Source: Antedon bifida
Lineage: Eukaryota; Echinodermata; Crinoidea; Comatulida; Antedonidae
Direction of reading: 5' to 3'
Assembly (NCBI GenBank): GCA_963402885.1
Contig: OY727102.1
Location: 11,594,001-11,658,000, forward strand
DNA length: 64,000 nucleotides
This document shows positions 4,984 to 64,000 of this stretch, one piece after another. The first letter of the stretch is position 1, and the number at the start of each line of letters is the position of its first letter. The position numbers and the translations under genes were made by a program. The notes below the pieces were generated by a model. The model was not told the origin of the DNA and made no database searches. It saw only the letters and a list, made by a program, of their open reading frames with translations.

Positions 4984-6164
4984 CTAAACTTTTTCAGCTT
5001 CAACTGCAAAGTTATCGTACACGTTGGCACTAGGTTCTTCAATACCATCAGTCTGTTTGCTTGCAAAGTTAAGGAAGACCTGCAAATACCATTTATACAT
5101 ATTTATAGTACCAATTTTACAAGAAAACAAGTAATAAGAAAAGTAAATAAGAAAATAATATTGATGAATAAAATCTAAGGTAGAAAAAATAAATGAATAG
5201 ACAATGTAATGAGTGAAGATGAAAAGGAGGTAGAACAAAGGAATTGTTGTGGTAGAAAGAGATGAACGAAGATATGTCAACATGATATATATAGATAGAT
5301 AGAATGAAGAAACTAAATGCCAATGCATTTCAAATAAACAAAATAAAGTATGGTTGACCAAAATGGGATCGACTGCAGGGAAATTTGCTGCCAAGTAGGT
5401 AATTTTCCTAATTAAGAATGATACCCTTTTATTTGTTAAAACAAGATATTTTGTACAATATTTTAATTTTTTAAACTTATAAGATTAGAAATGGAAACGG
5501 AATTATTTAGAAATAATTTTATTTTCTTTTGTTGATTTTAAGCTTTTATATTTTCACTTTGTATAAATCTACATTCATGTTTAATTTGTATCCCATTTCA
5601 TTTGCCTGTTTTGTAATATTTTATTTTATAATGTATTATTTTTTATCTTTGAATAAAAATGTCAGTAAAAAAAAAAATAAAACATAAAACTGGGCACTTA
5701 CTTGTTCAAGACTGGTTTGTGTCACCGAGTAATCTTCAATCATAAGCGCTCTTTTATTGTGTTCAAGTTTCCCAAAGATATCCGCAAGTGTGGCACTCTT
5801 CATTGGAAGTTCATACTGAATCAAATTCAAATGACATTCCTGAAAAACAAAATTGAAATATTTAAGATTTATTTCCGGTAATTTCTTCAAATTGGGTAAA
5901 ATTTTATAACAATTCATATTTCCCGATATTACTCAAAACAACAAAAAATGCTTTCTAAAATAGCGTACCTTCAGGACAGCAGTTGGGTAATGTTGAATGA
6001 AGAATGCTGTTATTTGTCGAACAGCCTGTTCATCAGTTCCACGAATGATTATTGTAAAATTATCACCAAACCGACTCTTCACGTGTTGTGGACTTCCGAT
6101 ACACTTGAATTGACCGTTAACCATGATTGCTAAACGGGTACAAAGAGCTTCACATTCTTCCATG
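4984..6164 (-). CDS. ABCA12-like: ABCA C-terminal tail (3 exons)
   Basis: Exons 5969-6164 ([28 protein letters not shown]), 5702-5839 ([26 protein letters not shown]) and 4984-5079 ([12 protein letters not shown], ending VEAEKV and TAG). The VFLNFA motif is the conserved ABCA C-terminal element that in ABCA1 supports lipid efflux. The spacing and wording of this tail are closest to ABCA12 among the human proteins I can recall. Confidence 0.95.
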
Positions 6165-51100: not shown

Positions 51101-54100
51101 CTCGCACAGAGGAGTGCGAGGAAATTTTAGAAATAAAAATGGTTGGTGGAGAGTGATTCAGGGTTTGGGTCTTTGCTAAGAACCCTGCTCGGAAAGTGAG
51201 ACGAACACCGTTGTTCTCAAACCGAATATGGCCAGGGTCTAAGGAAAGTGCGTGAATCTCACCCTTACGCTTACATGACGCTGCGGATACTAGAAACGCA
51301 GTCTTAATAGAAACATCGAGCAGAGATGCTGAACCAAGGGGTTCGTATGGCGGTTTTGTAAGGGCCTCAAGGACCGAGTTTAAGTCCCACCGGGGAAGCA
51401 AAGACCGCACGGGAGGTCGAACATTAAACATTCCTCTTATCAGCATCGATAGTTCTAAAGAGGAGGATACTGACGATCCGTCGGGAAACCTCGGTAATAC
51501 TACCGCAATAGCTGACCGGTACCCCGCTATGGTTCTGACCTGGAGTCCCGACTCAAATAGGTCATGGAGAAACCGGGAGACTTCGCCTAGAGAGGCGGAA
51601 TGAGGATCGATTTCATAACCGGCACACCATTGATAAAAACGCTTAAGGCGGCTGTTGTATAGTGTTCTTGTCGACTCCCGTCGAGACTGGGCTGCCAACA
51701 AGGCAGGCCCGTCTGGAATTCCTGCACTTCTGAGGCGATTCCTGACAAGGGCCAGGCAGTCAGCGTCAGGGATTGCAGGTTGTGAAGGCCCAGCCGGGCC
51801 CGGGATTGAACTAAGAGATCGGGCCGAATTGGCAGGGTCCTGGGCTGAGAATAAAGCAGACTCAGCATTGTGGGAAACCAAGTTTGGACCACCATGGAGC
51901 TACCAGGAGGATTTTGCATTGATGGCGGCGAATGTGAGATATGACCCGAGGGATGAGGGAAAGAGGCGGAAAGGCATACGCCCACATCCCGTTCCATGAG
52001 ATCGACAGGGCGTCGGTGGCCCAGGCCGTGGCTTCTGGGTACCGGGAGCAAAAAATCGGAAGTTGAGCATTCCGGTTCGTTGCAAACAGGTCGATGAGAG
52101 GTCGTCCAAACGTGTTGAAGATCTGTTGGACGACGGCTGTCGATAACATCCACTCGGTCGGCGGAAGGACAGAGCCCTTGCGACGGGAGAGGGCATCGGC
52201 AATCGTGTTGAGTTTGCCGGGAATGTGAAATGCTTTTAGGTGGATCCCCTGCTGGTGGCACCAGTTTAGGAGCTGCCATGTGTAACAACACAGGGTTGGG
52301 GAGTGCGTCCCGCCCTGACGGTTGATGTAAGATACCACCGTGGCGCTGTCGGACAGCACCAAAACAGCCTCCCCGTGACATAAGTGGAGCAGGCTGTGTA
52401 GAGTATTTGAGACTGCAAGAAGTTCTAGGACATTTATGTGGAGGGCTGATTCCAACATGGTCCAGGTTCCCGCTACCTGCTCGGAGGGCGCATGACCGCC
52501 CCACCCAGAGAGGGAGGCGTCGACGGTGACTCGCACCGACGGAATAGGATCGGAGAAAGGTTTTCCCCCGTCCAACCCTCCTGGTTGAAGCCACCACTGA
52601 ACGTGAGAAGCTACGAATGTATTTAGCGGGACCTGGGCCAGAATGTTTCTGGAGGAAGGGGAAAAATGATAAAGGAGGTGGAGTTGCATCGGACGCATGT
52701 GAAGTCGGCAGTCCGGAACTAAATCTACGAAACTCGCAAGGTATCCCAGAACTTTCAGCCACATCAGGGCTGGAGATGATGGTCGGGACAACAGGAGTTT
52801 TATCGCTGCCCGACAGGTCTCTATGCGAGCTTGTGATGGGAACGCCAGGGACCGAATGAGATCTAGACGGGCCCCAAGAAACAGTGGGGACTGAGACGGG
52901 GTGAGAACTGATTTTTGATAATTGATAATGAAACCTGCGGCTTCTGTGATCTTCAATACAAGGCCGACGTGGCTTACGAGGGCCTGTTTGGAATTTGCGA
53001 GAATTAGCCAATCGTCCAGGTACATGAAGATTCTTACCCCCATCGAGTGGAATACTGCCCCCAGTGCCTTGACTACCCGAGTGAAGACCCGTGGGGCAGT
53101 GGACAGACCAAACGGAAGGGCTCTGAACTGGTAAAGTTCCCCGTCCAGGAGAAACCGTAGCCAATGACGGTCCTCTGGGGAAATGGGAATGTGGAAATAG
53201 GCGTCTTTTAAGTCTAGAGATGCTGCCCAGTCCCTGGGACACAGGCCACGTAGGACCGTGACCAGCGTGTCCATTCTGAACCTTACCGGGATTATAAACT
53301 GATTTAAACTTCGGAGGTTGAGAATAGGACGCCAACCCCCCGATGCCTTTTCTGTGAGAAATAGTGTAGAAAGGTAGCCTTTTGTAAGGGATGTGAGAGG
53401 GACTCGTGAGATAGCTCCCTTCTGCATTAATTCTTTGACCCCATCGAATAAGGCCTTCTTCCTGATTGGGCAGGAAGGAATTTGAGTTGGCCTCTGTGGA
53501 CCCATATGCGGAAGTGAGGTGAATTCTATCCTGTAACCCGCGTACAGGGTACTTACAACCCACGAGTCTACTCCCATGGACTCCCAGACCTGTGCGAACA
53601 TCCCTAATCTTCCCCCCACCCGCTCGGTTACAGAAGAACCGAGCCCATCCCCAGGAATGTCACTTCTGGTTCCCACGGCGACCCCGACGCCGCCCTCCCC
53701 CACGGGAGGCATGTTGGGCCGGGTGGGAACTGGCCCGAAAGGGCCGGGGGGAGTAAGTAGGTCCCATGAGCTAGAGTGCGCCAAGGCCCACTCATCGGCG
53801 GTAATGAACTTCGCCGCAGGCCAGCGTATGCAAACCTCGCAGGTCGCAGATTGGCTGCATTTGCGGCAGCGCGGGCACGCCAAATGGCGGTCCAGCTTCG
53901 TGGACGGGCGGGGCCCGCCACACACGGAACAGGCTGCGGCTTTACGAGCAGACATGGCTACAAAACAAGTAAGGATACTGTTGGTAGAAGCTTCCTTCAC
54001 AAGAATGCTAAACACAATAAATCCACAAAGGTATGCGTTGCTAGCCAGGTGTCCTTTGTTATTTTGTTCTTTTAATTAGTTTTCCTTCAAGGTTTCAAGG

Positions 54101-57100
54101 TCACACGTCCGCTTTCCATGGAAAGCGAAAGGAATATGAGGACGATGTCATGCGTGAGAGACGTTTGTACGGCCCGCTACGGCGCCTGGACTATTCCATT
54201 TTCCTTTCGAGGGGTGTCCATATTGGGAATAATGGCATATGTAGAGTCTATACAGGTAGGGATCTCACGAAATAGACTACAGTTTTTTCAGGAAAATAAT
54301 TTTTTTCCCGATCCAATTTTTGATCAAAGATAATAAATATTATGTGACATTAAAATGGAATAATAAAAAAAAAATTGTTTTAATTATTCTTCTAGGGGGA
54401 CAATACATCTTTAAGGAATAATCAAAATATAATAACTGCAGTAATAATTTCAACATGGGTCTCTCACAATTCTTCATAATGAAAAGTGGTTAAAAGATTA
54501 TAATAATAAAGTACAGAAAAATAACATGTTACGCTGCTGTCAAATATTAAGTGCACTGACTATATTACTTACTTTTCCAGATCCTCAACAGTATCTATCT
54601 GGTTGAACAGCGATTCGGTCCAACCATCGTATACAGTCTCCAGTTCCTCAAGGGTCTTTTCTAGCCACTCAAAATCAACTTCAACTTTAGGAGGATTTGC
54701 AATAAGCGTCTGAATTGTTTCTGATAGTTCCATGGCCATAGCAAGATGTGTTTGAAAATCAGCTTCTTTATCCTTTAAAAGAAAAATATGTTTTGATAAT
54801 TAATTAATTGATTATTGTACAGTCAACTCTGCCAATAGTGGACACCTTTGGGCTGGCCAAATATGTCTTGTTTTCTGGAAAGTCTGTATTTGGAATGCGT
54901 TTCAAATGGGAAAAATGAATTTTGGACATTTTGGAACTCAAGAAAAGAGAGAGAGAGAGAGAGTTTCCTGTATTGGAAGAGTTGATTGAAAAAAAATGCA
55001 TGCACGATATTAAAAAAAGGTTGTAGGAAATAGAAAAAGTTAATCCAAATCTAGACCTAACTGTGTCTTGCCTAAGGACCGAAGCAATGCACAATACAAA
55101 TATTACCTGCATAAGCACATCAGTTATTCCAAATACATCGAGTAATTGATACTGAAGCACTGTCATATTGATTTTACAAATAGCCTCTTCAACTTCACCA
55201 AGATCAGTCATACTATCTGGTGGCAACATAAAGGTCTCGTCAAAGCTTCCTTCTTCACAGAGAACAGTAAACGGATCTTCCATTGCGAGAAGCTCAATGA
55301 ACTGTAAATTTAATATAAAATAGCTCTAAGGTACACAATTTCAGCATCTGTAGATGTCAACTAACATCTGTAGATGCCAATGATACCTCAATTAACATCC
55401 AACTACTGTTACCCACACCACTGTTTGTTTTTTTTTATATATATTTAGGAAAGTTGCCAAGGATAACCAAAGGGAATTCATTCACTATCCTTCTTAAAGG
55501 TGGCAATCACCGTTCATAAGACATATACACAAGATGCTCTACATAAACAAAGTCTTATTACAAGTCTTTGGGAGTGGAGTTGTAATTTGTCATTAGAAAA
55601 AATCCATATGACAGGACTTGGATTGGTAGCCAAGCATCATAACCACCAAGCCACAACTCAACTCCGTTGTTTTTCTAGTATTATTTTGTGTAACTTTTGT
55701 ACCTCCTTGAAAGCATCTGGCACCCTTGTCTTAACACATAATTTTGTCTTTTAATAATAAATTAATTGTAATTGTAATTTGTATTTCTGGTCACTGTGTA
55801 CATACCTTAGATGGTGAGATTGTCAAGCTAAGGAAAACATCAACAATTTCTGGAAGAACATCAGACAGTTCAAGGAAATCCCTGATCTCAGATTCGTCCT
55901 TAAAAAGTAACTCCAACTTTGGAAGATCAATTGTTCCTAAAATTGAATACAAATAAATTAACGTTATCAATAAAATCTGAAAAAAAAAACTACGGTAAAC
56001 CTTAAACTGTGATTAATTCATTCTACGTTTCATCATTTATTTGTCAAGAAAAAATAAATACTCATACTAAAAATAATTTTTTAAAAACCTATGAAATAAT
56101 TGTTTAACACATTACTTGTTGAGCTCAAATACAAAACAATTACATTACCATTGACTAATTTAAGAAGCTGATCATTTAGTGCACTATTAATAGACACAGC
56201 AAGACCAAGTTGTTTTTGGAGATCATTATACCACGATTCGTTAGCAAACATCATGCTTAACTGTTCCAGTGTCATTTCATAGCTAAAATGAATAACAATT
56301 ATAATAATAATTTGTGAGAAATTAATAGAGTTTATACATTTCATAGAATAAAATTTTATACAACTTTTGATCATGAATGGCCATAATATGGATAAAAATA
56401 GCAGTAACATTTTATAATCCATAAATAATTTGGATTGGCTAATAGAATTTCCATAACTAAAGTGGTTTTCAAATTAAAATTGCTTCGAAGTTTAAATTAA
56501 TCTTTTTTTTTTGTCTTGTGTGAGTTCATCTCACTTTTATTTCAATTCTATATTATGAATACATTGTATACAGGATACATAATATGTACATTTGTGACAG
56601 TAAGTTTTTTATATAGTAGATACTTACATATAAGATGCTTGAATTCAGTATTAACCATATTTTTTCATTTACAATTTTAGACACGATGTTAATTAAAATT
56701 TTAAATTAATCTAGTTAATGTAATTTCCATTTAAAACGCCTAGTTTTTTACCCTTTTTAATAGGAAGAATAAACACATCAACTTACTCCATAGTATTTCC
56801 CTCCATTTCTGCAAGCCAGAGATCGGTGACAGCGGTCAAATTTGCCAACGTTGTTTCGAGCCATTGTTCGTCCACCCTTATCTGAGGAGGATACATGGCT
56901 AATGTAGCGTACACGGCATTCACATGCTCCTGAAGTATTATCTGTTCCGTCAAGTTGAACGGTCGTGGTTCTATACTTTTGTTCGACAGAATCGATAACT
57001 GAAAATAAAATTAAAAGGTAAAATATATGTCAATATGAGAATACATGCGAAAATTGAATTCTGCATATGTTATTTGCTTTCATTGCATCAACATCAATCC

Positions 57101-60100
57101 CTTTGTGTACATGTGTAGGCCCGTTGTACAATGATAGGCATAATTGTTACACCAGAAGTAAGTCTGTAAAGAAAGTGTTCACAATGAATTTACATGGCTT
57201 AACTTGTTAAACCTAGGTTGTCACAAAATAGAAATGTCCAATTAACATACCTCGTGCATTATCTCATCAAGATTAATTAGTCCTGCTAATTCAGCTTTAA
57301 TTAGGGAAGCGTTGATTGAGCACAAAGTCTCTTGAACCAATTCAACGTCGGTCTTAGACATATTAGACAGCGTAAAGTAATCATTAAATGTACCAGTCTC
57401 ACAAAGGTACATAAATGGAAATGGAACTGAGAAAAACTCCATCATCTAATGCAATGAAAGACATTTTGGTTAGTTATACTGTTTGGCAGCTGTAGTTTTG
57501 CTATTTTATTATAATTATTCAGCTCTGTCTTCTTATCAAACTAGTTTGACAAAAAAAAGTGCCCAAATATGGTAGTGATGGTAGTAGTATGACATCATCA
57601 TGTACATCCATATATGGTCACATCACATATTTTTGTCACATAAAGTTTGATAGTGTAGACAGACCTTTATCATTAATTCACATTTGACAACACAAAAATA
57701 ATATTTATAAAACAAAAAATTGGAAATTTTTGTTAAAAAGAAGTATATAATATATAATACCTTTTCTTGATCATTTGTAAGACTTAGTATAAGATCGACG
57801 ACCTCTGGTAGAATAAAACTGACTTGTATCAACTTTCGTGTTTCGGTTGCATTCAACAGAATTCCTTCAAACGTAGGTATACTTATTTCCAAACCTGTAA
57901 TGTTGGATATCAATAGAAAACTGAAGAACGACACAAGTAATGCAAAGAGAGTTGGAATCCCGATCTTATGATCAGTAGTCCAATGTCCAACAAACTGCGC
58001 CACATGCCCTTACATTTAGATCGCTTTTTGGTGTTTTTTTTGTTGTTATTTTTGTTCATTGTGTTTTATATGTTTATGAGAGAATGAGGTATTACTCATA
58101 ACCACAAGATAAATAAAAAAAAAATAGACAGAGCTTTACAACTTACCATATAAATGAGGAATGTATTTAATACTCAGTGACGATATATAGTCTTTAATTT
58201 GTACATTTCTTAGAAATTCATAATACCATTCCTGAAATGTGGTATCGTTGCCCATGTATGCCATAATCAATTCTCCAATGTCGGACATACTGAAATAAAA
58301 ATGTATGCATCATCAATAAATAAACATAATTGCTCTAGCATGTTTTGAACGTTCATGTGTTTTTGTATGTATAATGTGATTGGTTGAGTTATAGTATCAT
58401 AAAACAAAGCCATAGTGGATGTTCAAAGCAACAGGTCTTCTTGGATAAGGACTTGGAGGTCTAATGTACAGGCTTGTGTACACTTAAAGATATATTAATA
58501 TATATATTTTTTGAAATTGTTTTGTTTAAATATGCTATTTTAATGTCACATAATAGTTATTTACTGTGACCAAAAATTGGGTAAAAAACCTGATAAAACT
58601 GTAATTTAAAGCAAAAAATAGTCAAATTGTTTATGTTGTCTTTTTATAAGTGAAATCATATTATATTTTTGTTTCTTTCTTATGGAAGTGAATAACTGCA
58701 AAAGGGCCTATTCAAAGTCTGATTATATATACATCTTTAAAAGACCTCAGAAAGAGTAGGGGTTTACCCCGGTGTCTTGGAGTATTTTAACCCCCATTGT
58801 TAATCACTAATGACCTTACCAATCACTTAACTGTTACAGAGATCCTGTGGTCCTATGTCCTAATGGTATGAAAGAGGAATAACTAATAATGAACTATAAA
58901 AGTACACTATGTAATTTTAAACTCACTCCATCATATCCATCATATCCATCGGATTAAAATCCATTTGCATGGAAAATACTGAAAGCAAATTCAAAAGATC
59001 TTCAACTGTAAGGTTATAACGTCCATCAAGTTCTTGAAATATTTCTGGAGCAGTTAGGACATTTCCAGCCAGTTTTTCAATGTTCTGAACAAATTCTTCA
59101 AATGAAACTCGCTCTTCATCATACGGTGGTGGCATTCCAAAGAATATGGTTCCAATCTGGTAAGAAAATGAATTAAATGAAATACTTTAATAAAAGTCAC
59201 AGGAAGAATATTTATTTTCAACATAAAGACTTGTCTACACTATCAAACTTTATTTGAAAAAAAAGTGATGTGCCCATAATATTATGGACATGATGATGTC
59301 ATATCACTACCTTATTTGGGCATACCACTACCATATTTGAGCACATTTTTTTTGTCAAACTAGTTTGATAGTGTAAACAGAGCTTATAGTAGTAATTTTT
59401 ACAGATAAAATGTCTTACAAATTGACATACAGTATATCTTTATTGTTCAAAGGTTTGCATGGCAAATAAACACTAGTAAAGTTAGGCTTGCTGTACACCA
59501 TGTGTTTCCAAAAGGAAATAAAGTATGGTTGATAATTTCTTGAAATTTGGTTGAATGCTGCGACCATTTTCTGAAAAGAGGTACTTATATGTCTTACATA
59601 CCAATGATTCGATTTGTTCCATATTGATTTCTTTTTGAATTTCTAAAAACAAAGCTGTTATGTTCACGCTACAAATTGTGTCAAGATGCAAACTAAGATC
59701 AGCAGCCATTAGAGGGCCGACCAAGGTTTCAATAGCAGTGGTGTTGCACAGGAAAGAATCATACTGTAGACTCACAAGCTCCATTATTATCTTTAGAAAA
59801 AAAAATAAAGAAATTTTTTGTAAGCAATGACATAAAGTAAATTAAAATAGCAAGTAATTCATCATTCTTAAACACGTACAATGAAGGTCTGTTAATGCTA
59901 AGATGTTATAACACACCTTTGTATTCTTGCAATTTGATTGGTTAATTATGCATCACATGTCATTTGGAATTAGCCCTACCTAATAGAAAAGTGATATCTA
60001 ATGGTGATAATTAACGCACTCTAATGCATGTTCATCTTTCTTTAAACATTTTGAGAATGTTTGCCACGCAACGTTGCCGAAATCAACTTGTTGTGCGCGC

Positions 60101-63100
60101 TGTCTATAACTGTTCTAATCCACGCCCCCAAAGTTGGAGCACTGCCCTTTTTAATAGCCTAACTTCCCGGCCTAGCATTCATCGATGATTTATGATGGAT
60201 AGATTGAAAAAAAGTAGGTGTACAAAACAAATAAATGTTTTGTATTCGTGAGAATGTTTTATTCAATGACAAATTGATCTATTTATAACTCTTACCATAC
60301 TCAGTTGACTTTGTGACAAACTACCGTTGCTGTGAAATCTTGATAGTTCTTCAAGAAGTCCAAAACTCCCGTCGATAAATTTCCGAAGTTCTGGTGAATC
60401 TGTTGCATATAAAAAATATGATGAACTGATTAATATTTAAATACTAATTTTGGTTGAAAAGACACGGGAAGAGAGATGAGGGTTTGGTAATAACATGATC
60501 AGATTGGGGAGTAATGGAGTTTCAAATGATAGCAATTGTGCTGGGAAGGTTTTAAGCTATCAATTTGAAAACTGCCATGGAATAGATGTGGGCTTGGTGT
60601 AATGTGATATCAAGATGAATGGAATTATACTGGGAAGGTTTTAAACTACTAAAGTAGTGGGGGAGAGGAGCCAGCTCTGGAGAGGGTATCTCTTTGTGAC
60701 TATAGTTGTACTGGAAAGGTTTTAAACTACATTTGAAAAACTACTATGGGAGGAGTATAACATCAAAATGCCCAAAATGTGGGATTTGTTAATGGAGAGG
60801 GAAGGTGCCCACTCTGGGATGAGCATTTTCTCATAAAATACATACATATTTACCTTCATCAATACAGGTGGTACCACAGCCATGTATACAGCAAATCTGA
60901 TCAGTACCACATTCTACATGGCTCTCACACAGGTAATCACATGTTGTTACTGTTTCAGCATCAAATTCAGGACAAACATTGAACACATTTTCTATAAAAA
61001 GAAAAAGATAATATTTGTTTTTTTTATATGTTAGTTAGTTTATATATTAGTTTAATTATTTTCTTTCCTATCCCTGTGTTTCTTAGAGGGCGTGGGGATG
61101 TATAGTGTGAACAGTCTTATAATAGAAATCTGTAGGCGATTGAAATTCTTGATGATGATGACATCATTAGACTATACTTAATTTTTCAGAGGGGGTCTGT
61201 TCTGCAGTCATGTTTCCAGTGATGATAATCTCTTAGAAGATTTGGGATCATTAAGGATTCAGACATCAATCTGTTAATCTTTGGATTAGAATATTAAAGC
61301 CTTTAAGAGGGGGTATGTTCTGCAGTCATGTTTCCAGTGATGACAATGTCTTCGGAGATTTGGGATCATTGAGGATTCAGACATCATTCTGTTAATCTTT
61401 GGATTAGAATATTTAAGTATTTCGGAAGTGTGTTTTGCAATCATGTCCAGTGATGCATGCTGTCGTCAACAGAAGTAATAAATGAAATAAATATTAATAT
61501 ATCTATAAATATTAATAAATATGTACCTTTCACAGCATCATGGATGTCGTTTAAGCTGACTATTACGGCATTAATAAGGTGAATCAACTCCTGATCCACC
61601 TGGTAAAAGGTACTGTTGAGCCAACTTGATATGGTTCCATTTAATCTACATAGAAAAAAGAATATACAGTACTGTACTGTAAGTATAATAACGTACATTT
61701 TTTTTTATTAAGTGCAATTTACATAGATAATCTAATGTATAGAAATATATCAAATTAAGGCCAATACCAACTAATAAGCAATTAACAATCTAGGTAGCAA
61801 ACTATTGACTATAATACACTTACATGTTACCCGATGAAAGACCATCTTTTGGCATAAGCATATCAAACAACATCTCAATATCTCCACTTTGATAAGCCTG
61901 TATGACATAAAAGAGTGCAAAGACTTCTTGTGGAAGTTCATCTACTTTACTTAGAACATTTTCAAATATCAATCGCAAACCTAAATCATCCTTTGAATAA
62001 TTTTTTGATAATTTTATGATCTGAAAAAAAATTTAATGTTAAAATTAGTAAGGCCCCACTTGGAAAAATGATATGACTTTAAGATCATTTATACATTATT
62101 GGATTTTGTATATCCAAGATAATAGGAAGAATTTGAACTGTAGCCGGGTGAGCAACACAAGGACATATCGCTTGTCATTGGTCAATTTGAACCTTGGGTT
62201 ATCTCTAGTGAGAACCAAGCTTTAATGGACGTCTATGATACTGGAAAAAATTAGCCTACAGTAACCAGTAGCTACAATAAATGTACCATATTATTAGAGT
62301 AGTAGAAATACACAATGAAAGATGGGAATGGGAAACTTTATAATGTTACCTGCTCTATGAGTTCCATAATATCTTCGTGTTTGTTTGGTTCATCAAAGAT
62401 CATTGTAAAATTAATAGAACAAATCTCCATGAGGAATTCGTGTTCATCAACGCTCGGTTCAAACGTTATGAAATCTGATATGTCTATTTCATTTTGGCAG
62501 ATCATATGTGCGACCATCCAAATATCTGTATGATTGGCGGTATCACGGAACAGAGCCATTATCTGTTGAACAAGAAAAAAAAAAAAAGTATGTATGGTAC
62601 AATACTTAATATTGTACACTCAACACCATTTAGGTACAGTCAATGTAGGATCCAGAATTTTGTAATATGGGGTATTAGCCCAGGGCCTAAAGTTGGGGGT
62701 TATACAGTAGCCCATCCCCCAACAGGCACAGATCCATGGGGGGCCCATGCAAAAGATTGGATATTAAATTAAGCTCACCCCTTCATGTCACTATTTTTAG
62801 GGCCCTCCCCCCGCCCCTTATATCAAAATCCTTGATCCGCCACTGACCTAAATGGATCCGGCAATGCAGATTGGATTTCATTGGAGTCAAGAAACAAATG
62901 GATTAGGAAGTACACAACTTTTAATATATAAGTTTTACCTTTTGCAGGTGAAGTGTTGATTCTCTCAATGCATCAATTACAAAATGAGTATGATTCAAAT
63001 ACATATCAAGTAATTTGAATGTAGAGTTACTGCCAAGCAGTCTGTCTATAGGGGTGTCACCAAGACGTACGCCATCTACAAAATAAAAACAACGAAAATG

Positions 63101-63858
63101 TTACAAAACTTGATGGCAAATCTGACTCTACTAATCTTTGTTCTTATTGGGGGAGAAATGTGCGAAATGAAATTTGATAATAACTTTAGAATTTATAATT
63201 ATCTGTACAAATGTATGATTCAATTTACATATATAGCTTACCTCCAAGATTCAGAAAACTTGGCAGGTCATCCATTCCAGTCAGATTAAATAAACTGTGC
63301 AATATTAACTGCCAATCAAGTTCCTCTTCTTTCAGAGTAGATAGGTGTTCTCTAGTCTGTTGGAAAAATGACTTGTCTTTAGGATCAGTTCTTTTGTATA
63401 TCTAAGATAATATGAAGAAATTGAACTGTAGCCAGGCGAGCAACACAAGGACATATCGCTTGTCATTAGTCAATTGGAACCTTGGGTTATCTCTAGTGAG
63501 AACCAAGCTTTAATGGACATCTATGATACTGGAAAACATTTAGGTATAGCCTACAGTAACCAGTAGCTACAATAAATGTTTCTATTAAGGCAGGGTAGTA
63601 GAAATACACAATGAAAGATGGGAATGGGAAACTTTATAATGTTACCTGCTCTATGAGTTCCATAATATCTTCGTGTTTGTTTGGTTCATCAAAGATCATT
63701 GTAAAATTAATAGAACAAATCTCCATGAGGAATTCGTGTTCATCAACGCTCGGTTCAAACGTTATGAAATCTGATATGTCTATTTCATTTTGGCAGATCA
63801 TATGTGCGATCATCCAAATATCTGTATGATTGGCGGTATCACGGAACAGAGCCATTAT
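4984..63858 (-). CDS. ABCA12-like: Giant ABCA12/ABCA13-like ABC transporter, 85 exons in view, 5' end outside the window
   Basis: A full-type ABCA transporter read right to left: ectodomain 1, TM2-6, NBD1, linker, TM7, ectodomain 2, TM8-12, NBD2, C-tail. The start codon, TM1 and N-terminus lie beyond 64000. The 85 exons sum to 13,515 nt, a multiple of 3, with every junction in phase, ending at TAG (4984-4986). The last exons match the ABCA12 pattern (SRFG..FT, HL..I.Y..P, QTSLEQVFLNFA). The very long first ectodomain also fits ABCA12/13, so I place it in that subgroup; ABCA membership itself is certain. Known ABCA proteins move lipids across or within membranes; ABCA12 loads lamellar granules in vertebrate skin. 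The substrate here is unknown. Component blocks are listed separately. Confidence 0.95.
6602..8866 (-). CDS. ABCA12-like: ABCA nucleotide-binding domain 2 (6 exons)
   Basis: Exons 8746-8866 (acidic linker, then VKVKNLKK), 8489-8557, 8159-8268 (Walker [11 protein letters not shown]), 7631-7739 (Q-loop [10 protein letters not shown]), 6964-7098 (signature [10 protein letters not shown], start of Walker B NIVFL) and 6602-6705 ([13 protein letters not shown]). All motifs are intact. ABCA consensus has SGGNKRKLS; here it is SGGMKRSLS, a mild variant. Confidence 0.96.
7170..7419. repeat. M1 MITE, two degenerate copies in tandem
   Basis: Two copies of the palindromic M1 family (GTGATGTGCCCAAATATGGTAGTGATATG core). 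The first (7170-7316) lacks a clean right end, and the second begins AAAGCTCTGTCTAACTTTATG at about 7311. Confidence 0.7.
7905..8076 (-). repeat. tRNA-derived SINE (minus strand)
   Basis: Read on the - strand from 8075, it shows a box A-like TAGCTGAGTAGTCTTAGG and a box B-like GGTTCAATTCC about 40 nt later. The tail runs left to about 7905. A short GGCCGAGCGGTTAAGGC fragment of another SINE lies at 7808-7826. Confidence 0.6.
8911..9077. repeat. M1 MITE copy
   Basis: TTTTGTCTACACTATCAAAC at the left and GTTTGATAGTGTAAGCAGAC at the right, with ACTACCATATTTGGG repeated inside. Confidence 0.8.
9166..18203 (-). CDS. ABCA12-like: ABCA TM7, ectodomain 2 and TM8-12 (10 exons)
   Basis: Exons 17918-18203 (TM7: [33 protein letters not shown]), 17483-17581, 16824-17081 (Cys-rich insert [12 protein letters not shown]), 16278-16341, 15608-15713 ([20 protein letters not shown]), 15041-15101 ([10 protein letters not shown]), 14422-14599, 12628-12743, 11991-12129 and 9166-9431 ([10 protein letters not shown], a helix, CNCNCG). 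The WYNN.G.HSLP..LNV.NN and NHPL blocks are diagnostic for the second ABCA ectodomain. Two LINE insertions lie in introns of this block and do not disturb the frame. Confidence 0.95.
9778..11860 (-). mobile_element. 5'-truncated LINE (L1/Tx1-like ORF2 C-terminus) with 13-bp target duplication
   Basis: Flanked by the exact repeat AGAAGTATTTCTT at 9778-9790 and 11848-11860, with a T run (poly(A) on the - strand) at the left edge. It is a target-primed insertion of about 2.06 kb. The - strand encodes an ORF2 tail in two overlapping frames: 11816-11484 ([11 protein letters not shown]) and 11518-10628 ([52 protein letters not shown]). One frameshift separates them near 11,500. The Cys/His block is typical of L1/Tx1-type LINEs. 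The RT domain is missing. The 3' UTR is about 0.84 kb. It sits in the ABCA intron between exons 11991-12129 and 9166-9431. Confidence 0.88.
12268..12510 (+). repeat. tRNA(Leu/Ser)-like SINE, family S1
   Basis: Head GAGTGGCCGAGCGGTTAAG (box A) and GTGTTCAAGGCTC (box B), then a conserved body (TCTCGGATAAGGACTATAAA, GTGTACTTTAAAGAACC, GATTACCCCGGTGTACTAG). Other copies: 39140-39400, 47278-47575, 40068-40165 and 58427-58850. The body beyond box B and the intron position argue against a functional tRNA. Confidence 0.8.
12921..12999. repeat. M1 MITE, left half (interrupted by a LINE)
   Basis: AAAGCTCTGTCTACACTATC through GGATATGATGACGTTATG; the rest of the same element resumes at 14241. Confidence 0.75.
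13000..14240 (+). mobile_element. 5'-truncated non-LTR retrotransposon (CR1/jockey-type RT C-terminal half)
   Basis: Open from [18 protein letters not shown] through [28 protein letters not shown], the active-site block QFADDHTLS, and the thumb, ending with TAA at 14096. It begins in mid-RT, as expected after 5' truncation. A 3' UTR of about 140 nt ends in GACCGAATAAAT followed by an ATT microsatellite, the kind of tail CR1/L2-like elements carry. The frame has no internal stop over nearly 350 codons, so insertion is fairly recent. The usual FADDT reads FADDH. It lies inside an M1 MITE in an ABCA intron. Confidence 0.88.
14241..14334. repeat. M1 MITE, right half (interrupted by a LINE)
   Basis: ATCACTACCATATTTGGAC to GTGTAGACAGAGCTTTA; completes the copy begun at 12921. 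Confidence 0.75.
14770..14937. repeat. M1 MITE, complete copy
   Basis: AAAGCTCTGTCTATACTATC to GTGTAGACAGAGCTTTA with three internal ACCATATTTGGGC-like repeats. Useful as a full-length reference. Confidence 0.85.
15201..15343. repeat. M1 MITE copy
   Basis: CTCTGTCTATACTATCAAA to GTTTGATAGTGTAGACAGC. Confidence 0.8.
15736..15878. repeat. M1 MITE copy
   Basis: AAAGCTCTGTCTACACTATC to GATAGTGTAGACAGAGCTT, in the opposite internal orientation to the 14770 copy. Confidence 0.85.
16424..16720. repeat. R2 MITE (TTAA-target family), complete copy
   Basis: Starts TTAAAGATATATTGG and ends GGGGACAATACATCTTTAA, so both ends carry TTAA plus an inverted AGATRTATTG. Body shared with the copies at 42763, 45028, 50144 and 58484. 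No coding content. Confidence 0.75.
17210..17255. repeat. Hammerhead-like stem motif
   Basis: GATCAAAGCATATTGATC folds into a 6-bp stem and is followed by GAAACGTCG. Same general form as the motif at 1750-1790; no intact ribozyme core recognised. Confidence 0.3.
18204..20161. other. Long ABCA intron with two weak foldback elements
   Basis: Between exons 17918-18203 and 20162-20312. Positions 18334-18468 form an imperfect foldback (CTCTATGCGCCTATGCTAA against TTAGCGTAGACGCATAG). Positions 19930-20114 pair ACGTACGCACTGAG with CTCAGTGTGAACGT. The rest is AT-rich and shows nothing recognisable. Confidence 0.45.
20162..20732 (-). CDS. ABCA12-like: ABCA post-NBD1 linker (2 exons)
   Basis: Exons 20521-20732 (ends [10 protein letters not shown]) and 20162-20312 (starts VFFKI, then a Lys/Glu-rich segment with KPKKKKP). 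The SxxTLDEVF block is the conserved ABCA regulatory element after NBD1 (compare SLEEVFLKV in ABCA1). The donor of the first exon (GTTTGA) lies at the very edge of a truncated M1 MITE. Confidence 0.92.
20424..20520. repeat. M1 MITE, truncated copy touching a splice donor
   Basis: AAAGCTCTGTCTACACTATC to ATATGTTCAAAC. The final bases are the donor GTTTGA of exon 20521-20732 read on the - strand. Confidence 0.75.
20962..21185 (+). repeat. SINE family S2
   Basis: GTGGAGTTGTGGCTTGTTGG head, GACAAATTACAACTCCACTC body and CCTTGGCAATTTCCC end. An inverted second copy lies at 55440-55685. Confidence 0.65.
21237..23881 (-). CDS. ABCA12-like: ABCA nucleotide-binding domain 1 (5 exons)
   Basis: Exons 23707-23881 (Walker [10 protein letters not shown]), 23110-23241 (Q-loop, [13 protein letters not shown]), 22613-22693 ([11 protein letters not shown]), 22162-22358 (signature LSGGMKRK, Walker [14 protein letters not shown]) and 21237-21611 (H-loop CTHFMDEAD, then [14 protein letters not shown]). 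All catalytic motifs are present, so this half should bind and hydrolyse ATP. The last exon continues into a Ser/Thr-rich low-complexity tail of about 85 residues, a likely regulatory stretch. Confidence 0.96.
22735..22864. repeat. M1 MITE copy
   Basis: TAGCTCTGTCTACACTATCA to GATAGTATAGACAGAGCTTT. Confidence 0.85.
23358..23582. repeat. 46-bp direct repeats around a LINE-tail-like insert
   Basis: The same segment of about 46 bp (CCCTTTAAATCTAGACATTC is its centre) occurs at 23358-23404 and 23537-23582 with two differences. Between them lie about 130 bp starting with a T-rich run. This resembles a short retro-insert, but the direct repeats are too long for an ordinary target duplication. Confidence 0.6.
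24315..27833 (-). CDS. ABCA12-like: ABCA first transmembrane block, TM2-6 (5 exons)
   Basis: Exons 27719-27833 (TM2, then [14 protein letters not shown], matching the ABCA coupling stretch EKE.RIKE), 26840-27030 (AMMIMGLKS, then two hydrophobic helices with the SRSD loop), 26141-26279 ([15 protein letters not shown], a helix), 25256-25460 ([19 protein letters not shown], ending NVFPG) and 24315-24440 ([17 protein letters not shown], the conserved run-in to NBD1). Every motif has a direct counterpart in human ABCA1 at the same place. The last exon adds a Lys-rich cytoplasmic stretch before NBD1. Confidence 0.95.
24655..25218. repeat. 93-bp tandem repeat array, about six units
   Basis: Units start ATACAGACAACCTCTATTCA and end at GTATACAATTA, every 93 bp (24751, 24844, 24937 and so on). 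Inner units are almost identical; the last is rearranged. Because 93 is divisible by 3, the + strand stays open for 203 codons, but the peptide is only the repeat translated. It lies in the ABCA intron beside exon 25256-25460. Confidence 0.9.
25968..26104. repeat. M1 MITE copy with expanded internal repeat
   Basis: Contains three direct CACTACCATATTTGGGAATAT-like 21-mers, then TTTGATAGTGTAGACAGAGC. Confidence 0.85.
26280..26839. other. ABCA intron, nothing recognised
   Basis: AT-rich intron between exons 26840-27030 and 26141-26279. I see no repeat or open frame of note. Confidence 0.4.
27031..27718. other. ABCA intron with a CAGTGGCGTAACGC-type repeat fragment
   Basis: CAGTGGCGTAACGCACAGGG near 27190 resembles the end of hAT-type MITEs; no matching right end was found. 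A CA microsatellite lies near 27650. Confidence 0.35.
28241..32377 (-). CDS. ABCA12-like: ABCA ectodomain 1, cassette 12 cysteine exon and membrane-proximal conserved part (8 exons)
   Basis: Exons 32171-32377 (last cysteine exon, FCDEDQ ... ETLCGLD), 31503-31833, 30983-31060, 30455-30597, 30128-30238, 29320-29572, 28854-28962 and 28241-28417. From 30597 on this is the part shared by all ABCA proteins: [18 protein letters not shown] (compare MKPLLMGKILYTPDSPAA in ABCA1), [15 protein letters not shown] and [11 protein letters not shown]. Exon 31503-31833 holds a basic stretch (SRRRREAHH, then KRRDAE) that looks like a furin-type site. For exon 29320-29572 the donor was chosen at GTTTGT because only that keeps the phase with the next exon. 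Confidence 0.92.
32427..32572. repeat. M1 MITE copy
   Basis: AAAGCTCTGTCTACACTATC to GATACTGTAGATAGAGCTTA. Confidence 0.85.
32600..33125 (+). repeat. Probable LINE 3' end
   Basis: Ends CAAATAAAGGTTATTGTATACG after GGGCAATCTGCCTCGGTGG, the layout of a non-LTR 3' UTR. No readable protein; assignment is tentative. Confidence 0.35.
33237..35096 (-). CDS. ABCA12-like: ABCA ectodomain 1, cassette 11 (4 exons)
   Basis: Exons 34908-35096 ([11 protein letters not shown] ... SELCSEE), 34500-34693, 33760-33887 and 33237-33358; 211 codons. Last of the regular four-exon cassettes before the membrane-proximal part. Confidence 0.87.
34120..34320 (-). repeat. tRNA-derived SINE, family S3 (minus strand)
   Basis: On the - strand: GTGTGGCGTAGTGTGTTGG (box A-like) and GTGAGTTTGAATCC (box B-like), then a body reaching the CTGCATTATGGGAG region. 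A related head lies at 57935-58013. Confidence 0.6.
35169..35332. repeat. M1 MITE, complete copy
   Basis: CCCTGTCTACACTATCAAAC to GTTTGATAGTGTAGACAGAG. Confidence 0.85.
35528..37257 (-). CDS. ABCA12-like: ABCA ectodomain 1, cassette 10 (4 exons)
   Basis: Exons 37057-37257 ([13 protein letters not shown] ... TMCSLHK), 36233-36432, 35875-35990 and 35528-35658; 216 codons. The second exon has lost the NPP motif but keeps the length and the phase. Confidence 0.87.
37574..37747 (-). mobile_element. Short 5'-truncated retro-insert with 12-bp target duplication
   Basis: AGGTCTAGGCTT at 37574-37585 and 37736-37747 flanks about 150 bp starting with a T run, i.e. a poly(A)-tailed insertion on the - strand. 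The body is too short to place in a LINE family. Confidence 0.7.
37827..40615 (-). CDS. ABCA12-like: ABCA ectodomain 1, cassette 9 (5 exons)
   Basis: Exons 40421-40615 ([11 protein letters not shown] ... QTMCRMNTT), 39581-39786 (ends in a QQQQ run), 38658-38780 (the extra 123-nt exon, Met-rich), 38121-38251 and 37827-37963; 264 codons, the longest cassette. All junctions are in phase. Confidence 0.87.
38371..38500. repeat. GTGGCxGATCCAGG-type dispersed repeat
   Basis: CAGTGGCATGTCCTGGATTTT start with a G-rich body and TCCTATCTTTTGCATTACAATTT. The same body recurs at 44455-44605; the family's ends also occur at 62636-62850. Confidence 0.55.
39140..39400 (-). repeat. SINE family S1 (minus strand)
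   Basis: Reverse copy of the 12268 SINE: CCTTATCCGAGAAGACTCG body and GAGCCTTGAACCC (box B complement) near the right end. Confidence 0.8.
40068..40165 (-). repeat. SINE family S1, 3' fragment
   Basis: CCCAGTTATGATCAGTGGCT matches the tail of the 39140 copy; head absent. Confidence 0.6.
41199..41328. repeat. M1 MITE copy
   Basis: AAAGCTCTGTCTACACTATC to TTTGATAGTGTAGACAGAGC. Confidence 0.85.
41384..43136 (-). CDS. ABCA12-like: ABCA ectodomain 1, cassette 8 (5 exons)
   Basis: Exons 42942-43136 ([11 protein letters not shown] ... MALCNLS), 42334-42518, 42068-42190, 41721-41848 and 41384-41505; 251 codons. Compared with four-exon cassettes it has one extra 123-nt exon (42068-42190) that leaves the frame unchanged. 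Cassette 9 has the same extra exon, so the two probably arose from each other. Confidence 0.87.
42763..42932. repeat. R2 MITE, right half
   Basis: Ends GGGGACAATACATCTTTAAG only about 10 bp from the donor of exon 42942-43136. Confidence 0.7.
43329..43605. repeat. M1 MITE, two adjacent copies
   Basis: First 43329-43459, second 43460-43605. Both have GCTCWGTCTACACTATC left ends and TAGACAGAGC right ends. Confidence 0.8.
43682..45520 (-). CDS. ABCA12-like: ABCA ectodomain 1, cassette 7 (4 exons)
   Basis: Exons 45335-45520 ([13 protein letters not shown] ... EMLCSVD), 44765-44961 ([11 protein letters not shown]), 44165-44292 ([12 protein letters not shown] ... DPDEL) and 43682-43785; 205 codons. 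Several of these exons have no internal Met, but all splice in phase. The donor of exon 44165-44292 directly abuts a LINE-like 3' tail. Confidence 0.87.
44080..44164 (+). repeat. LINE-like 3' tail abutting an exon donor
   Basis: GATGAATAAATGTATTTGTATTTG, a non-LTR-type end with short tail repeats, runs straight into the donor (GTACAAATAC on the - strand) of exon 44165-44292. Confidence 0.4.
44455..44605. repeat. GTGGCGGATCCAGG-type dispersed repeat
   Basis: ACAGTGGCGGATCCAGGATT start; body matches 38371-38500. Confidence 0.55.
45028..45270. repeat. R2 MITE, partial copy
   Basis: CCCCAAAACATGAAAAATAA start, ATCAAACTTTGAATAGGCCA and TTTTTGGTCAAAGTGAATAG. Orientation opposite to the 16424 copy. 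Confidence 0.7.
45698..46194. repeat. Longer TTAA-flanked inverted-end element related to R2
   Basis: TTAAAGATGTACCCTTT at the left and AGGGACAATACATCTTTAA at the right, about 500 bp. The interior differs from R2 except near the right end, so it may be a longer family member. Confidence 0.6.
46388..48493 (-). CDS. ABCA12-like: ABCA ectodomain 1, cassette 6 (4 exons)
   Basis: Exons 48299-48493 ([11 protein letters not shown] ... TALCSLD), 47699-47889 (ENPPNLEML), 47104-47228 and 46388-46506; 210 codons. An NLT glycosylation sequon lies in the second exon and an NVT in the first, as expected for an extracellular segment. Confidence 0.88.
46960..47086. repeat. M1 MITE copy
   Basis: AAAGCTCGGTCTACACTATC to TTTGATAGTGTAGACAGAGC; ends about 17 bp before the donor of exon 47104-47228. 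Confidence 0.85.
47278..47575 (-). repeat. SINE family S1, long copy (minus strand)
   Basis: From the CTAGTGATTGGCCAAGCAGTTAAG head (- strand) to a tail near 47280. The head still shows box A and box B positions. Confidence 0.75.
48904..55301 (-). CDS. ABCA12-like: ABCA ectodomain 1, cassette 5 (4 exons, split by a 4.6-kb intron holding a DIRS element)
   Basis: Exons 55107-55301 ([11 protein letters not shown] ... EAICKINMT), 54573-54772 ([13 protein letters not shown]), 49866-49984 and 48904-49025; 212 codons. The AA at the end of exon 54573 joins the T that starts exon 49984 (Asn), so the frame passes cleanly over the DIRS-bearing intron. Confidence 0.88.
49148..49836. mobile_element. Inverted-repeat DNA element with NotI-type subterminal repeats
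   Basis: The element spans 49154-49830 between direct CTATAC repeats. Terminal inverted repeats start TACGGAAGCCCGTTCGGGCC (left) and TACGGAAGCTCGTTCGGGTC (right, - strand) and run about 85 bp. Inside them a 22-bp motif (GGCGGCCGCCACTTAATTAT) repeats two times on the left and four on the right. A 48-bp segment (TGCAATCATGATTATGCACA start) is also present twice, at 49244 and 49550. No transposase. Family unknown. Confidence 0.8.
50144..50363. repeat. R2 MITE, left part (split by the DIRS element)
   Basis: GTGTATTGTCCCCGCAAAAC to TTTTTTGCTTTAAATTAC. The rest of the same copy resumes at 54281. Confidence 0.8.
50727..51881 (-). CDS. DIRS part: tyrosine recombinase
   Basis: A phage-integrase-type recombinase of about 380 residues with an N-terminal core-binding part ([20 protein letters not shown]) and a C-terminal catalytic part. 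It would act in DNA cutting and joining of a circular cDNA instead of an LTR-type integrase. Confidence 0.9.
   Translation of the reverse strand: MVSHNAESALFSAQDPANSARSLSSIPGPAGPSQPAIPDADCLALVRNRLRSAGIPDGPALLAAQSRRESTRTLYNSRLKRFYQWCAGYEIDPHSASLGEVSRFLHDLFESGLQVRTIAGYRSAIAVVLPRFPDGSSVSSSLELSMLIRGMFNVRPPVRSLLPRWDLNSVLEALTKPPYEPLGSASLLDVSIKTAFLVSAASCKRKGEIHALSLDPGHIRFENNGVRLTFRAGFLAKTQTLNHSPPTIFISKISSHSSVREDRLWCPVRAIQIYVNRTQHLRNGTSHLFVTTIKPHGPASKDTIARWVVSAIKSAYASSRLPPPAHMHEVRGSVASWALFRGVPVSDILAAAWWRAQTTFSSCYLQDVVSSQATVASAICRPSK
51862..54015 (-). CDS. DIRS part: RT / RNase H / methyltransferase-like region
   Basis: Family-typical order: zinc-ribbon-like Cys pairs near the start, reverse transcriptase in the middle, RNase H, then a DLFA-type methyltransferase-like stretch. 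It overlaps the start of the recombinase frame slightly, which is usual in this group. Confidence 0.9.
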   Translation of the reverse strand: MFSILVKEASTNSILTCFVAMSARKAAACSVCGGPRPSTKLDRHLACPRCRKCSQSATCEVCIRWPAAKFITADEWALAHSSSWDLLTPPGPFGPVPTRPNMPPVGEGGVGVAVGTRSDIPGDGLGSSVTERVGGRLGMFAQVWESMGVDSWVVSTLYAGYRIEFTSLPHMGPQRPTQIPSCPIRKKALFDGVKELMQKGAISRVPLTSLTKGYLSTLFLTEKASGGWRPILNLRSLNQFIIPVRFRMDTLVTVLRGLCPRDWAASLDLKDAYFHIPISPEDRHWLRFLLDGELYQFRALPFGLSTAPRVFTRVVKALGAVFHSMGVRIFMYLDDWLILANSKQALVSHVGLVLKITEAAGFIINYQKSVLTPSQSPLFLGARLDLIRSLAFPSQARIETCRAAIKLLLSRPSSPALMWLKVLGYLASFVDLVPDCRLHMRPMQLHLLYHFSPSSRNILAQVPLNTFVASHVQWWLQPGGLDGGKPFSDPIPSVRVTVDASLSGWGGHAPSEQVAGTWTMLESALHINVLELLAVSNTLHSLLHLCHGEAVLVLSDSATVVSYINRQGGTHSPTLCCYTWQLLNWCHQQGIHLKAFHIPGKLNTIADALSRRKGSVLPPTEWMLSTAVVQQIFNTFGRPLIDLFATNRNAQLPIFCSRYPEATAWATDALSISWNGMWAYAFPPLSLIPRVISHIRRHQCKILLVAPWWSKLGFPQC
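54281..54414. repeat. R2 MITE, right part (split by the DIRS element)
   Basis: AGTTTTTTCAGGAAAATAAT to GGGGACAATACATCTTTAAG. Confidence 0.8.
55440..55685 (-). repeat. SINE family S2 (minus strand)
   Basis: Inverted relative to 20962-21185, with an extra piece in the head (GGACTTGGATTGGTAGCC on +). Confidence 0.65.
55806..57445 (-). CDS. ABCA12-like: ABCA ectodomain 1, cassette 4 (4 exons)
   Basis: Exons 57251-57445 (LCETGTF ... ETLCSINAS), 56787-56998 ([13 protein letters not shown]), 56149-56282 and 55806-55936; 224 codons. The NPP/YPP-containing second exon and the cysteine exon are clear paralogues of those in cassettes 3 and 5-7. Confidence 0.88.
56491..56712 (-). mobile_element. Short 3' fragment of the same LINE as 9778-11860, with target duplication
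   Basis: TTTAAATTAATCT at 56491-56503 and 56700-56712 flanks 196 bp that match the LINE's 3' end (TTGTCTTGTGTGAGTTC, GAATTCAGTATTAACCATAT, CGATGTTAATTAAAAT). Confidence 0.85.
57521..57668. repeat. M1 MITE copy
   Basis: AGCTCTGTCTTCTTATCAAA to GATAGTGTAGACAGACCTTT. Confidence 0.8.
57761..59790 (-). CDS. ABCA12-like: ABCA ectodomain 1, cassette 3 (4 exons)
   Basis: Exons 59602-59790 (cysteine exon, FLCNTT ... DTICSVN), 58927-59156 (230 nt, the longest second exon, with Met/Asp-rich MDMMDMM at its end), 58147-58289 and 57761-57894; 232 codons. The second exon carries MPPPY in place of the usual NPPK. All phases join (0-0, 0-2, 1-1, 2-0 leftover pattern). Confidence 0.88.
57935..58013 (-). repeat. 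SINE family S3, head fragment
   Basis: On the - strand GGCATGTGGCGCAGTTTGTT then GATCGGGATTCC; matches the 34120 SINE head. Confidence 0.55.
58427..58850 (+). repeat. SINE family S1 copy interrupted by R2
   Basis: SINE body CTTCTTGGATAAGGACTT to GTACACTTAA at 58427-58487, an R2 copy at 58484-58737 (AAAGATATATTAATAT to ACATCTTTAA), then SINE body AGTAGGGGTTTACCCCGGTG. The TTAA of the SINE sits on both sides of R2. Confidence 0.75.
59225..59387. repeat. M1 MITE, complete copy
   Basis: CTTGTCTACACTATCAAACT to GTTTGATAGTGTAAACAGAG. Confidence 0.85.
59791..60295. other. ABCA intron, nothing recognised
   Basis: Between exons 60296-60399 and 59602-59790. I see no repeat or open frame of note. Confidence 0.4.
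60296..62562 (-). CDS. ABCA12-like: ABCA ectodomain 1, cassette 2, interrupted by a WAP exon (5 exons)
   Basis: Exons 62350-62562 (cysteine exon, 213 nt), 61824-62020, 61527-61645, 60854-60991 (WAP) and 60296-60399; 257 codons, or 211 without WAP, the normal cassette size. The cysteine exon differs from that of cassette 1 at one base (Val for Ile). The WAP exon sits between the usual third and fourth exons and has the same phase at both ends, so removing it would leave the frame intact. Confidence 0.88.
60530..60760. repeat. Degenerate tandem repeat, about 85-90 bp period
   Basis: ACTGGGAAGGTTTTAAACTA-like motif three times, near 60541, 60629 and 60712, in the intron next to the WAP exon. 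Confidence 0.55.
60854..60991 (-). CDS. ABCA12-like: WAP (whey acidic protein, four-disulfide core) domain exon inside the ABCA ectodomain
   Basis: A 138-nt exon with splice phase 1 at both ends encodes about 46 residues with eight cysteines: [25 protein letters not shown] and TTC. The order and the central D-Q-I-C-C block are the WAP four-disulfide signature. WAP domains are small secreted modules, often protease inhibitors or antimicrobials, usually carried on symmetric phase-1 exons that shuffle easily. Flanking exons (61527-61645 and 60296-60399) join it in frame, which makes it part of the transporter's extracellular region. I know of no described ABCA protein with this domain. Confidence 0.85.
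61187..61455. repeat. Tandem duplication, period about 118 bp
   Basis: GTTCTGCAGTCATGTTTCCA to TTAATCTTTGGATTAGAATA occurs twice, with a partial third start near 61430. Confidence 0.75.
62056..62114 (-). pseudogene. Decayed copy of the first part of ABCA exon 63242-63401
   Basis: TTGGAAAAATGATATGACTT and TTTTGTATATCCAAG align with the corresponding start of exon 63242-63401 and its acceptor. The acceptor AG is gone here (CTTGG in place of CTTAG on the - strand), so this is now intron. Confidence 0.5.
62636..62850. repeat. MITE with CAGTGGCGGATC-type ends
   Basis: GTAGGATCCAGAATTTTG at the left and AAAATCCTTGATCCGCCACTG at the right are inverted. The left part recurs at 63934-64000 as part of the tandem duplication. 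Confidence 0.6.
62939..63858 (-). CDS. ABCA12-like: ABCA ectodomain 1, cassette 1 (3 exons)
   Basis: Exons 63646-63858 (213 nt, phase 0-0), 63242-63401 (160 nt) and 62939-63075 (137 nt); 170 codons. The first exon holds the cysteine pair (ICQNE ... MEICSIN). The second replaces the usual two middle exons with a single one (IYKRT ... FLNLG). It is the most N-terminal part in view; the transmembrane anchor must lie to the right. The cysteine exon is nearly identical to that of cassette 2. Confidence 0.85.
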
Positions 63859-64000
63859 CTGTTGAACAAGAGAAAAAAAAGTAAGTATGTATTGTACAAT
63901 ACTTAATAAGTTAAGTTCACTCAACACCATTTAGGTACAAATCAGTGTAGGAATGTTGTAATACAGGGTATGGGGATTGGCCCAGGACCTCAAGTTGGGG

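Follow-up and report, generated by a model that had tools for sequence, protein, structure and literature searches.

Giant first extracellular domains (ECD1) are found in the ABCA12 and ABCA13 transporters of vertebrates. An excerpt of PMC13161189 describes abnormally large extracellular domains in ABCA2, ABCA12 and especially ABCA13. For ABCA13, an excerpt of PMC7948424 states that the N-terminal region is without homology to known human proteins and without any well-conserved domain, and that vesicles cannot take up cholesterol without the extracellular part, in which no domain is recognised. Here we describe an ABCA gene of a crinoid, Antedon bifida, found in a 64,000 nt stretch of contig OY727102.1 (positions 11,594,001 to 11,658,000), which we call the window. 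Like ABCA12 and ABCA13, it codes for an abnormally large ECD1, about 3,300 residues between the first and second transmembrane segments (TM1 and TM2) in our approximate model. The likeness is in the size of ECD1 alone; ABCA12 and ABCA13 are absent among the solved-structure matches of the model protein. Between two ECD1 exons of this gene lies an exon coding for a WAP (four-disulfide core) domain. To our knowledge, ABCA1, ABCA4 and ABCA7 have no WAP domain.

We consider it likely that this exon truly belongs to the gene of a giant ABCA lipid transporter, and that the WAP domain was gained by exon shuffling and would act as an acidic spacer or binding unit. The evidence consists of one exon in one genome, known here from DNA alone. 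The initial annotation knew of no ABCA protein with a WAP domain. Our searches of the open-licence literature agree, as we have found none in print; protein-architecture databases are outside that scope and may hold such proteins unremarked. WAP domains, symmetric exons and giant ABCA ectodomains are each of known kinds, their combination is apparently new, at least to us.

The observation of a WAP-coding exon between two ABCA ectodomain exons is confirmed. The coordinates in the initial annotation, the phase 1 at both ends and the in-frame splicing with both neighbours turn out to be exact when the minus strand is read directly: an acceptor ending in TTTTTATAG precedes the exon and the donor GTAAAT follows it. 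The exon has no stop in the phase-1 frame, has a split codon at either end, and is in frame with both exon 61645-61527 and exon 60399-60296. These neighbours had been taken for ordinary ABCA ectodomain exons. They do lie in the first ectodomain of an ABCA protein, but they are not of the canonical ABCA1 type: they belong to a giant repeated insert in ECD1. They are also in frame with each other directly, without the WAP exon. Since both ends of the WAP exon are phase 1, inclusion and skipping alike preserve the frame.

The WAP exon would be spliced into the mature message. Of the 95 acceptors scored in the gene model, that of the WAP exon is the 6th best; its donor is 33rd of 95, above the median. 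These ranks argue for regular inclusion. When its sites are forbidden, the score of the gene model falls from 759.6 to 749.9, a loss of 9.7 nats which persists if the codons of the exon are excluded from training. A cassette exon, whose inclusion is limited to certain tissues, stages or individuals and which is absent from most of the transporter, is a possible but rather unlikely alternative. Skipping would keep the frame, with phase 1 at both ends, and give ...DAVK-D-SPELRK..., and the flanking sites are not strong (the donor at 61527 scores 1.0 and the acceptor at 60399 scores 0.8), whereas the ranks of the exon's own sites speak for its regular use.

The peptide coded by this exon has the spacing C-x10-C-x3-C-x5-C-x5-CC-x3-C-x3-C, with all eight cysteines, the CC pair and the C-x3-C-x3-C ending of the WAP pattern, as had been read from the sequence at the start. 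The Pfam WAP search (PF00095) proposed at that time agrees: the exon peptide scores 31 bits (E 3.2e-7, cut-off 20.8), and 23 bits when the exon sits within a joined piece of 1414 amino acids. In a six-frame search for this family through the whole genome (315.6 Mb in 27 contigs, the window being on contig C15) the match in the window has 29.3 bits and E 4.0e-4, over the cut-off; by our own arithmetic, this E-value scaled by length to 64 kb is about 8e-8. The closest PDB sequence match of the peptide is nawaprin (E 0.069), and of the fold matches of the modelled domain, omwaprin has the highest TM-score (0.68). Among the ten best rows from Foldseek there are seven with named WAP proteins and three with chains of 6atu; the VIA listing has eight entries, of which six are named WAP proteins and two are 6atu and 8g4y, and it leaves room for families outside the list. 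A mere chance likeness to WAP, or membership in some other family rich in cysteine, is scarcely credible. There is a weak match to the conotoxin-type Toxin_11 family (11.9 bits, below its cut-off of 25), and two conotoxin structures in PDB match the peptide with E about 0.1; against these stand a WAP score over its cut-off, the exact WAP spacing and the predominance of WAP proteins among the best Foldseek rows.

We have compared this domain with 16 of the 65 other WAP matches in the genome, picked for variety. Identity is only 23–36%. Nevertheless, 10 of the 11 columns which are invariant in these 16 domains are kept, including all eight cysteines, which is hard to explain without selection: the eight cysteines would have been kept by it.

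The gene which contains this exon has been modelled with generic splice matrices and with transposon open frames masked; an unmasked model ran into a retroelement and a zinc-finger-like gene, so the masked model has been used. It has one minus-strand gene with 96 exons and 4,665 residues, which starts past the right end of the window and extends down to about 5.3 kb. The TM1 exons align to positions 26-83 of the ABCA7 chain (E 8.8e-9), and also to ABCA1 and ABCA4. On either side of the start of TM2, the preceding residues and the membrane part that follows can be aligned in pieces to positions 459-857 of ABCA1 (E 2.5e-41). Among solved structures, the second half of the model matches ABCA1 best (550 bits), followed by ABCA4, ABCA7 and ABCA3. 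Pfam finds ABC2_membrane_3, ABC_tran and R1_ABCA1. The protein has the ABCA layout, with TM1, ECD1, TM2 to TM6, a nucleotide-binding domain (NBD) and a regulatory domain of ABCA1 type, twice over, the Walker region of NBD1 being incomplete in the model. By these alignments and Pfam matches the gene belongs to the ABCA transporters, and this identity, which rests on them, is independent of the details of the gene model. Two ECD1 queries matched only this locus in the whole genome, a search which distant paralogues could escape, given how far the repeat units diverge; the gene appears to be present in a single copy.

TM1, the membrane-proximal part of ECD1, TM2 onward and the second half thus align with ABCA1, ABCA4 and ABCA7. 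The difference is an array of repeats of about 3,000 residues, which in this gene lies between the parts that correspond to about positions 26-83 and to 459 onward of the solved chains. Exon phases in ECD1 recur as (0,0)(0,2)(2,1)(1,0), with exceptions; we have counted about 14 units, mostly of four exons. When 14 of the (0,0) exons are aligned, two of which are near-identical, two cysteines are invariant and the mean column identity is 31%. In a typical unit a phase-1 intron separates the (2,1) and (1,0) exons, and the WAP exon occupies one such intron. At 4 of the 11 phase-1 junctions listed, two of which are probably mis-modelled, the split codon reads Gly; it is plausible that the junction carrying the WAP exon is a linker. 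The WAP family search finds no other WAP domain in this gene. The extracellular domain of ABCA13, going by the title of a 2002 report by Prades, is said to be coded partly by one 4.8-kb exon; in contrast, the crinoid ECD1 is formed by many short exons with a recurring phase pattern, and has a WAP domain in addition.

The coordinates of all these features are given in Table 1. A tandem duplication of ECD1 exons is found at 62104-64383 (minus strand), with a spacing of about 1.3 kb, a block of 289 nt with 99% identity and a block of 149 nt with 94% identity. It seems that the array is still growing, or that the duplication was made by the assembly.

Table 1. Position of the WAP exon and of the other parts of the ABCA gene (all coordinates are those of the window).
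Feature	Position	Strand	Details
WAP (four-disulfide core) exon	60854..60991	minus	phases (1,1), 138 nt
Intron upstream of WAP exon	60992..61526	minus	genome match at its own place only
Intron downstream of WAP exon	60400..60853	minus	dispersed repeat
ECD1 repeat exon upstream of WAP	61527..61645	minus	phases (2,1); open frame, splice sites
ECD1 repeat exon downstream of WAP	60296..60399	minus	phases (1,0); open frame, splice sites
ECD1 repeat exon, WAP-carrying unit	61824..62020	minus	phases (0,2)
ECD1 repeat exon, WAP-carrying unit	62350..62562	minus	phases (0,0); near-identical copy at 63646-63858
ECD1 repeat exon	62939..63075	minus	phases (1,0); copy at 64247-64383, past the window end, identical in 137/137 bases
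ECD1 repeat array, part inside the window	32171..64000	minus	first of about 14 units beyond the window end, to about 68028
Post-array exons	30992..31833	minus	both RX(K/R)R motifs of the model protein (within 31833-31503 and 31060-30992)
Membrane-proximal ECD1	28340..29572	minus	aligns to positions 459-609 of the solved ABCA1 chain
Remainder of first transmembrane domain, TM2 onward, ABCA1-like	25256..27833	minus	gene model, ABCA1 alignment
Parts of first nucleotide-binding domain and what follows	21237..22357	minus	gene models, Pfam, structure matches
Second transmembrane half with extracellular domain (ABC2_membrane_3)	8746..18108	minus	gene model, Pfam
Second nucleotide-binding domain and R1_ABCA1-type regulatory domain	5702..8557	minus	gene model, Pfam

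Several mobile or repeated elements are found inside the introns of this gene. A retroelement at 50727-54075 (minus strand), with a GC content of up to about 0.55, has frames which resemble reverse transcriptase/RNase H and a tyrosine recombinase; by eye we take it to be DIRS-like. Pieces similar to LINE reverse transcriptases, also by eye, are found at 12993-14096 (plus strand) and 10628-11858 (minus strand). At 24638-25288, on the plus strand and mostly in an intron, opposite to the ABCA gene, there is a tandem repeat with an open frame made of a repeated 31-residue unit. Outside the window, the mitochondrial contig (15,844 nt) agrees with a crinoid: it is best translated with the echinoderm code, AAA being Asn and ATA being Ile at conserved positions; nine major-strand genes, named by eye from their translations, contain 46-53% T and 9-13% C; and nad4L is next to nad5. 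For comparison, PMC7748595 gives 15,792 bp for a crinoid and describes about 45% T and 12% C as specific to crinoids; it also cites a paper with a title on a unique nad4L rearrangement in this group.

The symmetric phases of the WAP exon had been taken as the mark of a shuffled extracellular module, and the other WAP domains in the genome bear this out. We have examined the splice phases at 52 of the 65 other matches, the remaining 13 being outside the stretches fetched. The best-scoring splice sites around the domain have phases (1,1) in 43 of the 52; the best donor is phase 1 in all 52, while four have no acceptor over the threshold and in five the best acceptor is of another phase. As most of the other WAP domains examined have phase 1-1 sites, exon shuffling is a natural explanation, and a phase-1 intron could accept such a module. 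We suggest that one of the ECD1 repeat units received, in its phase-1 intron, an exon of symmetric phase 1 which carried a WAP module. With phase 1 at either end, 46 residues would have been added and the frame left undisturbed; with the insertion at an exon junction of the repeat unit, the array would have gained a module and lost nothing.

The introns on both sides have been compared with the rest of the genome, in a search which skips simple and very common words. The upstream intron, genome-wide, matched only itself. It contains a tandem repeat with two copies of 118 nt (61184-61419), 91% identical. The dispersed repeat of the downstream intron has 48 genome matches listed, itself included, several of them in tandem on contig C10 near 24.479 Mb; none of these 48 places was recognised beside another WAP match. 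The genome has at least nine R1_ABCA1 matches. Among the matches listed, and by eye, no WAP other than that of the window is found within 6 Mb of any of them, both lists being lower bounds. Large tandem WAP arrays are found at 34.295-34.313 Mb of contig C7 and 19.744-19.761 Mb of contig C15, some of their peptides being identical; it looks as if the WAP genes of this animal have multiplied recently.

What the module may do can be considered by comparison with described WAP proteins. Waprins (nawaprin, omwaprin) and short-spaced WAP domains have the same eight-cysteine core, and nawaprin also has three residues between cysteines 2 and 3. Waprins are small secreted proteins, while the module in the window is acidic and lies inside a polytopic transporter. 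SLPI and elafin (WFDC4, WFDC14) would share the WAP fold with it, according to the fold model, but they have eight residues between cysteines 2 and 3; the crinoid domain has three, and its core, with a charge of -7, contains no Lys or Arg. According to an excerpt of PMC11408880, SLPI domain 2 and elafin are the only human WAP domains with 6 residues between cysteines 1 and 2 and 8 between cysteines 2 and 3 (here there are 10 and 3); where cysteines 2 and 3 are 3, 4 or 7 residues apart, there may not be enough room for an inhibitory site; and SLPI and elafin are hypothesised to owe their antimicrobial activity to cationic charge.

The initial annotation had proposed that the transporter may carry a module which inhibits proteases or acts against microbes. 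Both roles are disfavoured, the first by the short spacing and the second by the negative charge, and we find this proposal quite improbable. Three residues between cysteines 2 and 3 would be too few for the inhibitory geometry of SLPI and elafin. The domain is probably not a serine protease inhibitor in their manner, and probably no cationic antimicrobial either. The short spacing is the ordinary layout in this genome, found in 44 of the 52 WAP domains examined, which also speaks against the proposed role. We suppose that the module would be a small acidic unit stapled by disulfides, which would provide the array with a rigid spacer or with a surface to which some partner, extracellular or luminal, could bind. 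The initial annotation had placed it at the cell surface; mouse ABCA13, analogous in its size, is located on intracellular vesicles in HEK293 cells, as stated in an excerpt of PMC7948424.

A number of points weigh against the reading of this exon as a functional, acidic WAP module gained by exon shuffling. As regards function, the argument uses spacing and charge only. An acidic core is ordinary among WAP domains of this genome, with a median charge of -3 and negative values in 46 of 52. WFDC2 has a short spacing too. An excerpt of PMC11408880 gives this protein as a cross-class inhibitor, so the spacing rule is not absolute. As regards origin, the nearest WAP domain in the genome (C14:5028713) is only 43% identical, and the intron DNA points to no donor gene. 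The gene model is home-made and approximate: a canonical first exon ahead of TM1 is lacking, the first exon of the model is probably wrong, further exons are mistaken or absent, the NBD1 core (Walker region) is lost in the masked model and present in the unmasked one, and other small (1,1) exons are doubtful. The forbidden-site test uses this same model, with its generic splice matrices. The fold model of the WAP domain is middling (mean pLDDT 75, pTM 0.50), it depends on an alignment of WAP domains, and its best Foldseek E-value is 0.16. Finally, the WAP domain in the window has the lowest score of the 66 in the genome. It has His three residues before cysteine 4, where the 16 compared domains all keep Asp (a trait of this set, not a rule of the family), and it departs from two of three further columns common to at least 14 of the 16. 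With this Asp lost, relaxed constraint is possible.

These last features would agree with a dead or unused exon, a WAP sequence copied into an intron and left unspliced, or part of a nested gene; the dispersed repeat in the downstream intron is a possible vehicle. We think this improbable. The frame is open, the eight cysteines and both splice sites are intact, and strand and phase are right. Identity to any WAP matched in the genome is 43% at most, so it is no recent copy, and a dead exon so old should have decayed. A nested gene starting in the upstream intron is unsupported: we have detected no start exon there, and no open ATG frame in this intron runs to a phase-1 donor.

The model protein contains only two RX(K/R)R motifs, at residues 3085 and 3125. 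They are found within about 45 residues, between the array and the conserved base of ECD1. On their sequence, they are possible furin sites, which would free the array. The giant ectodomain might then be a landing site for modules which is afterwards cleaved, and a WAP-bearing extracellular protein of about 3,000 residues would be released, or held by non-covalent or disulfide contacts. This is speculative, and we give it a low probability.

In summary, no explanation has so far been given for the extracellular region of the largest ABCA proteins. An ECD1 built of recurring exon units, together with a known extracellular module, offers a readable plan for that region. The uptake of a WAP domain suggests that ECD1 is a protein-contact surface, and it marks a site where an insertion is tolerated. 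If the ectodomain were indeed cleaved, the gene of a lipid transporter might also yield a large WAP-bearing extracellular protein.
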